A DNA stretch of 64,000 nucleotides. It comes from Verrucomicrobiia bacterium. Lineage in GTDB: Bacteria > Verrucomicrobiota > Verrucomicrobiia > Limisphaerales > JAEYXS01. The notes beneath the pieces are model-generated. The model saw only the letters and a list, made by a program, of their open reading frames with translations. It was not told where the DNA came from and did not search any database. Made by a program: the position numbers and the translations under genes. The first letter of the stretch is position 1, and each line of letters starts with the position of its first letter. The DNA is taken from contig DASWYF010000047.1 in the NCBI GenBank assembly GCA_036405135.1, positions 124,001 to 188,000 of the forward strand, read 5' to 3'. Below, piece after piece: positions 10,648-57,149 of the stretch.

Positions 10648-11400
10648 ATGAAAGCACAGACGTACTCTATTCATCGGGCGGCCTTCACGCTCATCGAGCT
10701 GCTGGTCGTCATCGCCATCATCAGCATTCTGGCGGGGCTGTTATTGCCCGCGCTGGCGAATGCCAAGCGGCAGGCGCAGAAGACGCAATGCATCAACAAT
10801 CAGAAGCAGATGGGTATCGCCATCAAGGTCTTCGCGAATGATCACGAGCAGAATTATCCCTACAAGGTGCAGGGCAGCTCGCTCAAGACGAACAACAATT
10901 GGATGGATACCTGGCAACACTTCCAGAAATTCTCCGGTGAACTTGGTTCGACGAAATTGCTGTTGTGTCCAGGCGACGCCATCCGCAAAGCAAATGAGGC
11001 TCTGGACTTCACCGACGTTGTCGGACGCGGCTTGCAAGAGCCGGGCAAGCAGAATGCGGCGGTGAGTTATTTCATCGGCTTGGAAGCGGATGAGACGAAG
11101 CCGTCCACGATCCTCTTCGGCGATCGCCACATCGGGCCGAGTGATACGGCACTGCATTATCGCTATGCCACGAACATCACGGCCACGAGCACGAATGCGG
11201 TGGTGTGGTCCAAGTTGGTGAACCAGCACGTGACGCCGATGCACGGCAGCGTGGGTGTGTTTCTCCTCAGCGATGGCAGCATGGCCTCCGGCGGCAATGA
11301 GAAGCTGCAAGAGCAAGTGCGCCTGAGCGAACAAAGCAACGGCGCGAAGGCGAATCAATTCGTCCTGCCGCAAGTGGATGCGGAAGGGAAACCACAATAA
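10648..11400 (+). CDS. Pseudopilin-like protein with type IV prepilin N-terminus
   Basis: 250 residues. The prepilin peptidase recognition and helix read [19 protein letters not shown], starting near residue 12, with the usual Glu at +5. A soluble domain follows with FGDRHIGPS and a late LLSDGSM motif, as in the large Verrucomicrobiota/Planctomycetota family of secreted pseudopilin-like proteins. The ATG at 10648 is preferred because GTGAGGT is at good distance; an in-frame upstream start would spoil the leader. Whether it forms pili or is part of a type II secretion-like fibre is not known. No pilus assembly genes lie nearby. Confidence 0.85.
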
Positions 11401-11988: not shown

Positions 11989-12182
11989 CGTGCCGTTAGG
12001 CACGAAAGATTCATAGCGGCGGCTTTCAAAGCCGCCGGGTGGGATCAATAGGAGTGCCGTCACGTAGTGACGGAAGATTTTGGTTGGCAGTGGTTCTGTC
12101 GTCGCTATGCGACGCGGGAACTGAGATGGGCTACCACGGGTTAAAAACCCGTGGCTAGGAATCTGTCCTCGCTAACGCGAGG
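11989..12182. repeat. Six-hairpin cassette, copy 1
   Basis: Six hairpins in a row: CGTGCC-GTTA-GGCACG (11989), CGGCGGCTT-TCA-AAGCCGCCG (12017), CCGTCAC-GTA-GTGACGG (12057), CGTCGC-TAT-GCGACG (12100), CCACGGGTT-AAA-AACCCGTGG (12134) and CCTCGC-TAAC-GCGAGG (12167). A second copy with the same order and linkers lies at 55451. Two stems differ between copies by paired changes that keep pairing: the second pair of hairpin 1 is G-C here and A-T there, and a pair in hairpin 3 is A-T here and G-C there. Loop types are mostly preserved. No open frame spans it. Confidence 0.85.
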
Positions 12183-12272
12183 GGGACTGCGGGTGGAAGG
12201 TGCGAATAGGTTGAATGCAAGCAACGATGTCTCTCGTGCCACTTTCAGGGCACATCCCTTTGTATCGGACTT

Positions 12273-12341
12273 CCTAGGGCAGCAATCGCCGTAGGCGACG
12301 ATTGCTGCCCTAGGCTAGAATCTATTGGCCCTTTGGGCCAA
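12273..12341. repeat. Long perfect hairpin plus a second short hairpin
   Basis: A 16-bp perfect stem, CCTAGGGCAGCAATCG at 12273-12288 with its complement at 12299-12314, encloses a 10-base loop (CCGTAGGCGA). Ten bases later comes TTGGCCC-TTT-GGGCCAA (12325-12341). Both lie between the hairpin cassette and the sugar isomerase-like gene. No T-run follows, so this is not an ordinary terminator. Confidence 0.8.
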
Positions 12342-38572: not shown

Positions 38573-38696
38573 TTCTTCCTTCTCTCCTTGGAGGGGAGAA
38601 GGATTGAGGATGAGGGATGCCCGGCCCAAGTATTCACGCACGAACAAAAGCCCGGCACCCCTCACCCCGGCCCTCTCCCCTCCGAGGGGCGAGGGT
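38573..38696. repeat. REP doublet in inverted orientation
   Basis: Left unit: CTTCTCTCC-TTG-GAGGGGAGAAG followed by GATTGAGGATGAGGGATGCC. Right unit is its near reverse complement: GCACCCCTCACCCCGG then CCCTCTCCCCT-CCG-AGGGGCGAGGG. The left unit is also found near 47826. The pair lies between the M20 gene and the epimerase gene. Confidence 0.65.
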
Positions 38697-47825: not shown

Positions 47826-47880
47826 TTCTCCCTTGGCAGTCGAACTTCGACCGGGAGAAGGATTGAGGATGAGGGTGCCC
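47826..47880 (+). repeat. REP-like unit, second locus
   Basis: Hairpin of CTTCTCCC and GGGAGAAG with an inner hairpin GTCGA-ACT-TCGAC, followed by GATTGAGGATGAGGGTGCCC. The tail shares 20 of about 21 bases with the left unit at 38573. The inverted partner to its right is decayed. Confidence 0.6.
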
Positions 47881-55450: not shown

Positions 55451-55652
55451 CATGCCGTTAGGCATGGAAGATTCATAGCGGCGGCTTTTTAAGCCGCCGT
55501 TTCTTTTTGGCAAAATGCTCCGTCGCGTAGCGACGGAAGATGCAGGTTAGTTCCAAACGGGAATCTTGCGTCGCTACGCGACGCTGGGAAACTCGTTCGG
55601 ATACCACGGGTTAAAACCCGTTGCTATGAATCTGCCCTCGCTAACGCGAGGA
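55451..55652. repeat. Six-hairpin cassette, copy 2
   Basis: Same order as copy 1 (11989): CATGCC-GTTA-GGCATG (55451), CGGCGGCTT-TTT-AAGCCGCCG (55479), CCGTCGC-GTA-GCGACGG (55520), GCGTCGC-TAC-GCGACGC (55568), CCACGGGTT-AAA-ACCCGTTG (near 55603) and CCTCGC-TAAC-GCGAGG (near 55637). Differences at paired positions in hairpins 1 and 3 keep the stem. Immediately follows the PEPCK-like gene. Confidence 0.85.
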
Positions 55653-55694
55653 GAGATAGCGTTTGAAGGTGGAACTGCATATCACGCTGACTTT

Positions 55695-55734
55695 GCTTAT
55701 GGACGTTGCTGCGGATAGGGACAATCCGCGCTCC
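55695..55734 (+). repeat. Dispersed element, copy B
   Basis: Starts GCTTATGGACGTTGCTGCGG (identical to copy A at 48591, read on the other strand) and ends CGCGCTCC. The middle holds a hairpin GCGGAT-AGGGACA-ATCCGC. Confidence 0.75.
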
Positions 55735-55740
55735 CCCGGC

Positions 55741-55911
55741 GGAGCGTGGCCGTCCTCGGCCGCAGCAAGGTGAAATGCTGCAGGCGGCTTCAGAGGGTGA
55801 GAACGGGTGCGATCAAGAGAATCATTTCGCACGGCAGGCTCTGCGCGAAACTAGCCCACCTTTGCTTATGTATCCCGCATGCGGGACTGTGCCCGAGGAC
55901 GGGCACGCTCC
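55741..55911. repeat. REPIN-like inverted REP doublet
   Basis: Left arm 55741-55763 (GGAGCGTGGCCGTCCTCGG followed by CCGC) and right arm 55889-55911 (GTGCCCGAGGACGGGCACG followed by CTCC) are near reverse complements. Each arm contains its own hairpin with different but paired stem bases: GTGGCCG-TCCT-CGGCCGC on the left (one pair is a mismatch) and GTGCCCG-AGGA-CGGGCAC on the right. The right arm touches the stop codon of the propeller gene. Confidence 0.7.
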
Positions 55912-57149
55912 TACTCAATCCGAAATAAGTGCTGCTCTCCCCGGATGAACAGACATTTGTTTCCCACTGCATAAGAAGCCAACGTGCGTTCGGCGAGGTT
56001 ATTTTCGGCCAGTTTCTCGAAGGTCTTGCCGGGTTTGAGCACCACACCCATGCCTTGCTCGCTCTGGAAATAGATTCTTCCGGCGGCGTAGATCGGTGAA
56101 GCCGAGTAGTTACCGCCGATGCGTTCCTGCCAATGCACACTGCCGGTCTTGGCATCCGCGCACGTCGCGATGCCGCCATCGGAAACCATGTAGAACTCAT
56201 CGCCTACCACCAGCATAGAAGGTGTGTTCGGTCCGCCTTTGGGCAATGACCACGCAACGTGTGTATCCGTGACATCGCCTTTGTTAGCATCTACGCGAAT
56301 CGCCATCGCGATGGGGCGGTCATAGCCGGAGCTTAGGAAAAGCATCCCGTTTGCATAAACGGGTTTTGGGATCACCGAATAGCCTTCACCATAGCGGCAG
56401 CGCCAGAGTTCTTTGCCATCCTTCGGATTCAGCGCACAAACTACTCCGCTGCCGGGGCTGATGATTTGCTTCTGGCCGTTCACTGTGATGACCGTGGCCG
56501 TGCTGAAGGAAAACGCTCTCTTCGCCGTAGTTTCACGCGGGACTTTCCAGCGGATGCTGCCGGATTGTTTATCCAGCGCGACCATGAAGGGATCCTTCGC
56601 GCCATCGCAACTGAAGAACAGGATGTCATCCACAATCACCGGTGAGCCGCCGTTACCATGCACGGGCTGGTATTTGATCGTGTCATTCTTCCAGATGACT
56701 TTGCCTTTGAGATCGAGGCACGCTGTGCCTTGATGGCCGAAGTGGACATACACGCGGTCTTTCTCAATCACCGCCGTCGGGCTGGCGTGACTGTTCTTCT
56801 TATGGATGCCGGGTGAAGTCTGGGGGCGAAACACTTCTGTGTTCCAAACGATCTTGCCGTCCTTTGCATCCACGCACAATGCGTGCAAGGACTGGCCGCC
56901 TGCATCATTCGTGATGGCAGAGGTGAGGTAGATGCGGTCCTTGAAAAGAGCAGGGGAGGACCAGCCGGTGCCGGGCACTTCGATCTTCCATTTCACATTC
57001 TCCGTGGCGCTCCACTTGAGTGGGAGAGACTTGGCTTCCGCATGGCCATGGTTCGACCCGCGGAACTCTGCCCAATCCGCCGCCTGCAAGCTCACTGTTC
57101 CCAGCCAGCACAGCACTAAACCTAATGTGAAAAATCGGATTGTCTTCAT
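55911..57149 (-). CDS. Exported PQQ-type beta-propeller protein
   Basis: 412 residues. Signal peptide cut near LQAADW. The mature part is a beta-propeller: WAEFRGSNHGHAEAKSLPLKW (quoted in part), WSSPALFKDRIYLTSA, LHALCVDAKDGKIVWNTEVF, ACLDLKGKVIWKNDT, VALDKQSGSIRWKV and CADAKTGSVHWQER. The GxxxW blades are those of PQQ-like repeat proteins, which bind cofactor in dehydrogenases or simply serve as scaffold. No dehydrogenase residues are recognised, so binding of PQQ is not claimed. The start at 57149 replaces a longer frame to 57197. Confidence 0.82.
   Translation of the reverse strand: MKTIRFFTLGLVLCWLGTVSLQAADWAEFRGSNHGHAEAKSLPLKWSATENVKWKIEVPGTGWSSPALFKDRIYLTSAITNDAGGQSLHALCVDAKDGKIVWNTEVFRPQTSPGIHKKNSHASPTAVIEKDRVYVHFGHQGTACLDLKGKVIWKNDTIKYQPVHGNGGSPVIVDDILFFSCDGAKDPFMVALDKQSGSIRWKVPRETTAKRAFSFSTATVITVNGQKQIISPGSGVVCALNPKDGKELWRCRYGEGYSVIPKPVYANGMLFLSSGYDRPIAMAIRVDANKGDVTDTHVAWSLPKGGPNTPSMLVVGDEFYMVSDGGIATCADAKTGSVHWQERIGGNYSASPIYAAGRIYFQSEQGMGVVLKPGKTFEKLAENNLAERTLASYAVGNKCLFIRGEQHLFRIE

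Follow-up and report, generated by a model that had tools for sequence, protein, structure and literature searches.

A six-hairpin cassette in a Verrucomicrobiia genome is best explained as a gene-less IS200-like single-strand transposon

The window, by which we mean the whole 64,000-nucleotide stretch analysed here (positions 124,001 to 188,000 of contig DASWYF010000047.1, Verrucomicrobiia bacterium assembly GCA_036405135.1), holds a cassette of six perfect hairpins that contains no reading frame (copy 1, Table 1), together with a second copy in which the hairpins follow the same order. The earlier note on this DNA, which had located both copies correctly, offered a structured RNA, a mobile hairpin array or a combined terminator and stabiliser as explanations. 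We conclude, with a probability of about 0.88, that the cassette is an internally deleted, non-autonomous IS200-like single-strand (Y1/HUH) transposon, which has kept its arms and is missing its transposase gene, tnpA. The mobile array was essentially the right guess, since the same arms bracket a Y1/HUH gene and the cassette is absent from orthologous sites in sister genomes.

When the copies found in the genome are lined up, the cassette proves to be symmetrical: H1, the linker AGATTCNTAG, H2, a spacer and H3 are followed by an inverted repeat of that layout. With a strict hairpin defined as a stem of at least 6 and a loop of 3 to 6, position 11989 is the sole site in the 64 kb with six strict hairpins per 200 nt. 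Copy 2 has five, and 20 Markov-resampled windows never contained more than three. Folded as RNA, the cassette has a z of -4.8, and none of 200 shuffles was equally stable.

Table 1. Coordinates of the cassettes, their parts and related arms. Positions are those of the window unless a contig is named; H, hairpin.
Feature	Position (strand)	Description
Cassette copy 1	11989..12182 (.)	left arm H1-H2-H3 and inverted right arm H4-H5-H6, no gene between; half-model matches C47:135987-136079 + and 136093-136184 -
H1, outer hairpin, left arm	11989..12004 (+)	CGTGCC-GTTA-GGCACG; covariation helix 1
Conserved linker AGATTCNTAG, directly 5' of H2	12007..12016 (+)	possible guide sequence, NTAG; AGATTC and TAG invariant in 36/36 half-elements
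H2, long hairpin, left arm	12017..12037 (+)	covariation helix 2
H3, inner hairpin, left arm	12057..12073 (+)	covariation helix 3
H4, inner hairpin, right arm	12100..12114 (-)	inverted H3 equivalent
H5, long hairpin, right arm	12134..12154 (-)	inverted H2 equivalent
Conserved linker, right arm	12155..12164 (-)	reverse complement AGATTCCTAG
H6, outer hairpin, right arm	12167..12182 (-)	inverted H1 equivalent
Half-element of second family, beside copy 1	12236..12341 (-)	inverted arm: hairpins 12236-12253, 12273-12314, 12325-12341; cognate to tnpA on C33 of the window's genome
Cassette copy 2	55451..55651 (.)	H1 55451-55466, H2 55479-55499, H3 55520-55536, H4 55568-55584, H5 about 55604-55623, H6 55636-55651
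Arms of the C20 element	C20: 262225-262273 (+) and 262857-262905 (-)	96% identical to the window's H1-H2 module

The paired stem changes that had been claimed between copies 1 and 2 are correct, and they hold far more widely in the genome. In an alignment of 36 half-elements, all from the window's own genome, 95.4% of cells were paired against 78.8% after shuffling, both sides had changed in 15 of 22 pairs, and the covariation score was 0.415 against 0.131 for shuffled alignments and at most 0.09 for slid controls. G-U pairs are rare among the paired cells. The stems fall into a few discrete types, with one-sided intermediates almost absent, so the independent events are fewer than these cell counts suggest. 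While the stems vary, AGATTC and TAG beside H2 do not; the base before TAG can be A, T, C or G (hence NTAG), with GTAG standing at the foot of H2 in elements on C34, C35, C6 and C2. Stems that mutate without keeping their pairs, an outcome the earlier note had named as telling against its own reading, were looked for in these half-elements, and the stems were found to co-vary.

A second such outcome, the lack of any copy outside the window, was likewise not what we found. Searching the window's genome (5.8 Mb in 52 contigs) at the nucleotide level gave 43 matches, some of them full cassettes of ~200 nt and many of them 53-nt H1-H2 modules. A covariance model of one three-hairpin end found 60 half-elements genome-wide at E <= 0.01, most of which form head-to-head inverted pairs a few bases apart. 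This half-model also matched 30 times in sister genome G001 and 6 times in G002, both of the same genus, and a few times in 12 of 55 genomes from other families of the order. In a phylum sample, 12 of 289 genomes, the window's own included, had matches at E <= 1e-5; the model is tuned to the genus, so absence elsewhere means little. Within the window's genome, the identity of full-length copies to copy 1 does not exceed 77%; the nucleotide search revealed no near-identical full-length copies and hence no sign of a recent burst. That no recent transposition event was seen counts against the transposon reading.

Several further repeats were observed along the way. A small genome of the same order, G006, has ten weak half-model matches of ~77 nt, and tnpA of the cassette-linked type was not found there. 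Near copy 2, at window positions 55690-55912, further short palindromes match many places in G002 (for example, a 25-nt stretch with 100% identity at several loci) and apparently represent another dispersed repeat family. An identical 23-nt sequence, GGGAGAAGGATTGAGGATGAGGG, occurs at window positions 38594-38616 and 47853-47875, 9 kb apart, and the similar AAGGATTGAGGATGAGGG adjoins a half-element in locus L025.

The arms are also found with a gene between them. The window's genome has eight PF01797 matches, six of which are compact tnpA genes of about 150 codons, and all six intact tnpA are bracketed by two hairpin arms. One of these genes (C20:262354-262803) lies between inverted arms that match the window's own H1-H2 module (Table 1), and the other five have hairpin arms of their own. 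The second family, represented in the window beside copy 1, has 18 matches in this genome, one of them flanking its cognate tnpA on C33. Relatives from one Acidobacteria and one Phycisphaerae genome likewise stand between three hairpins on either side. Within the order, tnpA of the cassette-linked type was found in 37 of the 58 genomes sampled, and in most, though not all, of the loci that could be parsed (three could not) its two flanks match as inverted repeats far better than shuffles or outer controls do. At one locus (G021:C140:1122-1845, L057/L071), a tnpA gene is closely preceded on its upstream side by four half-elements that repeat in direct tandem at a distance of about 204 nt.

The strongest single evidence that the cassette is a gene-less element is an intact element of sister genome G001 (C33:1941-2720), with a TnpA that shares 79% identity with the TnpA of the C20 element. 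Its upstream arm carries GTGCC/CGGCGGC and its downstream arm CTCGC/CCACGGG. The upstream arm matches the left arm of copy 1 with a local score of 52.5 and the downstream arm matches the right arm with 60.5, against 9 and 11 when the arms are swapped; copy 2 behaves like copy 1. Copy 1 thus keeps both ends of an intact element, in their order, and the window's cassette is what the G001 element would be minus its gene.

Which enzyme this gene encodes bears directly on the nearest alternative, a classical REPIN or BIME, in which two inverted REPs are mobilised by a domesticated RAYT (TnpA_REP, class 2). Looking through the rest of the genome for a transposase of the RAYT type, as the earlier note advised, does lead to a Y1/HUH gene between the same hairpin arms, but the enzyme is IS200-like (class 1) and not a canonical RAYT. 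TnpA matches PF01797 at 6e-28, exceeds the cut-off for the IS200/IS605 model NF033573 (80 bits against 55) and falls far below that for the RAYT model NF047646 (26 bits against 80). By sequence, it matches TnpA structures of the ISHp608 type. In the alignment, the P0001 TnpA has a DHVH (HUH) motif and Y115, and its YIHGQREHH forms a Y---Q--HH signature; of the four further TnpAs aligned with it, three show the equivalent and P0004 has Q--HN. This signature marks subclass 1.2 of TnpA_Y1 as defined by Quentin et al. 2018 (PMC6006769), a subclass which that paper describes as generally lacking terminal secondary structures and as coming mostly from Cyanobacteria and Bacteroidetes; class 2 enzymes carry an NP motif instead. 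In favour of a REPIN are two inverted copies dispersed in intergenic DNA, an invariant TAG 5' of H2 (GTAG in the elements listed above), a bias to gene 3' ends and, as in a REPtron, a single-copy tnpA per arm type beside tens of dispersed arm copies. Set against these points, the class of the enzyme and the presence of three hairpins per end, not one, make a REPIN or BIME an improbable explanation.

Comparison with the sister genomes shows that presence of the cassette varies. At the site of copy 1, G001 has the flanking genes and no cassette, and G002 has both arms of the second family (12236-12341 type); copy 1 may therefore have inserted into a second-family element or taken the place of part of one. 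At the site of copy 2, G001 has the same upstream gene and again no cassette, and G002 lacks a further three cassettes at the orthologous positions. The clearest of these empty sites is the counterpart of C36:121401, at which just 55 nt of G002 separate the two aligned blocks. Match positions point to shared locations for a cassette on C36 with G001, for C2:77018 with G002 and for C2:51197 with G001. Being absent at some orthologous sites and common to others, the cassettes thus vary in presence within the genus, as for a mobile element, and in single cases absence from a sister site could reflect loss by deletion. The five empty sites in sister genomes yielded no base-exact junctions, their intergenic DNA being too diverged. 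Beyond about 6 nt outside the outer hairpin H1 no base is conserved, and the flanks of 36 ends contain no fixed target oligonucleotide, only a weak pyrimidine run within the 6 nt next to H1. Elsewhere in the window, positions of about 10680-10820 cover the start of an N-methylation/DUF1559-type gene, which has dozens of matches in G001 and G002 and belongs to a large gene family.

The position of the cassettes relative to genes invites two further readings. Simple ORF calls place 9 of 16 cassettes between convergent and 7 between co-directional genes, with none between divergent genes or inside genes, and each of the 16 has a gene 3' end nearby on one or both sides. This bias fits the removal of harmful insertions and equally a role at 3' ends. 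A transcribed structured RNA, whether a non-coding RNA or a cis-regulator conserved for its RNA fold, would be consistent with this closeness to 3' ends, the strong covariation and the folding z of -4.8. We consider it very unlikely: the window has no Rfam match at the gathering threshold, the stretch around copy 1 contains no promoter-like site, the arms are inverted and near-symmetric, and G-U is rare among the paired cells, unlike in typical RNAs. Moreover, presence at the same gene differs between sister species and the same arms flank transposase genes, and transposon arms account for the conserved structure. Least probable of all is a 3' element useful to the host, combining terminator and mRNA stabiliser whatever its origin, which would suit the 9, 7 and 0 counts, the T-rich run after H2 of copy 2 and the ordinary terminator-like hairpin that G001 has, in place of a cassette, after the same gene, but copy 1 has no terminator-like site, the same bias would arise equally if selection purged insertions that fall within genes or close to promoters, and the same genes do without the cassette in sister species. 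Given the location beside gene 3' ends, an effect on transcript ends or stability may be a side effect, as may an RNA role; neither is supported as what the cassette primarily is.

The two ends of a cassette differ significantly more than random pairs of ends do. The halves are of different type in all 13 typable cassettes. Mean arm identity within a cassette is 0.676, against 0.718 (sd 0.013) under random pairing, and none of 2000 shuffles was as low (16 cassettes); within the cassettes of G001 and G002 it averages 0.684. Simple random joining of halves as the source of cassettes is rejected on these figures. The left and right ends of the intact G001 element also differ, so that a cassette is most simply read as one left end joined to one right end, in the manner of IS200/IS605. 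In the window's own genome, the nearest intact element (L032, C20:262224-262906) departs from this pattern and tells against the transposon reading, as its two ends are similar (identity 0.83), unlike those of the cassettes. On its right side it carries an arm like the right one of a second cassette type (GGCCC/CAGCGGC left, GTGCC/CGGCGGC right), so that, by inspection of the arms, the C20 element may be a chimera of two cassette types. Local folding of the hairpins, as a further reason for unlike ends, was not demonstrated: in DNA folds of whole cassettes, some long-range pairing persisted in many of them. REP dimers have earlier been observed to favour unlike partners, a tendency with no agreed explanation (PMC3733652).

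We are able to propose a mechanism that connects these observations. An intact element comprises the left arm H1-H2-H3, a Y1/HUH tnpA of ~150 codons and the inverted right arm H3'-H2'-H1'. Its TnpA would bind arms that have folded into hairpins in single-stranded DNA, probably in the lagging-strand template, would use the conserved AGATTCNTAG/NTAG beside H2 as a guide, and would cut and rejoin at the ends. We infer that gene-less copies are mobilised by the same TnpA in trans. Stems would be free to change in pairs because the enzyme recognises the folded shape and a few fixed unpaired bases, and such reading of shape would lead to paired stem changes while AGATTCNTAG stays fixed. The two ends of one element may be kept different either because the left and right roles differ, or because two nearly identical ends would make a long inverted repeat that collapses into a single hairpin and is lost. 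More generally, we see an even chance that the TnpA subclass described as lacking terminal structures defines a widespread group of single-strand transposons in which each end has three hairpins. Gene-less copies of this group would then follow a different-ends rule (one left-type and one right-type end), and their stems would diversify in pairs, keeping the six hairpins folding separately.

The implications extend beyond this locus. An anonymous hairpin array can now be assigned to a defined mobile element for which there is a candidate enzyme, and this in bacteria whose repeats of this sort have been little annotated. Our data suggest that Y---Q--HH Y1 transposases do have terminal structures, and more complex ones, at three hairpins per end; with ends of this complexity, the reported lack of IS features in the Y---Q--HH group may partly be a detection problem. 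In addition, natural paired stem changes combined with fixed unpaired bases provide a map of what the enzyme may read in folded single-stranded DNA.

Among known systems, IS200/IS605 elements (ISHp608, ISDra2) share with the present family the transposase family, as seen from PF01797 and NF033573, hairpins near both ends and, in the G001 element, ends that differ in sequence; as in IS200, no tnpB was present in the cassette-linked tnpA flanks examined. The family differs from them in having three hairpins per end in place of the usual one, a tnpA with Y---Q--HH, arms that far outnumber the genes and no defined target tetranucleotide in the flanks of 36 ends. With TnpA_Y1 subclass 1.2 (PMC6006769) it shares the Y---Q--HH signature, a conserved C-terminal tail and few gene copies per genome, but in the present family hairpin arms enclose the genes, including those of the Acidobacteria and Phycisphaerae relatives. 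REPINs, BIMEs and REPtrons (RAYT, TnpA_REP) are likewise intergenic, dispersed inverted pairs of palindromes with a 5' NTAG and a cognate single-copy Y1 gene, whereas the enzyme here is class 1-like, the end has three hairpins and the unit measures about 200 nt. TIRtrons (TIRYT; Di Nocera et al. 2013, PMC3733652) also place Y1 genes between long inverted repeats, some of them self-complementary, and are described there as having moderately abundant dispersed copies, some of them dimers, in taxa that include Acidobacteria; three-hairpin arms and gene-less six-hairpin units are absent from the main text of that article. PATEs of Haloquadratum are, like the cassettes, transposase-less derivatives of IS605 type that retain only palindromic ends; they differ in being archaeal and in generally having one palindrome near each end, and the article's passages on these elements report no paired stem variation (PMC3119063). 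The cassette is best seen as a non-autonomous IS200-like element, PATE- or REPIN-like in character, set apart by an unusual three-hairpin end and a different-ends rule.
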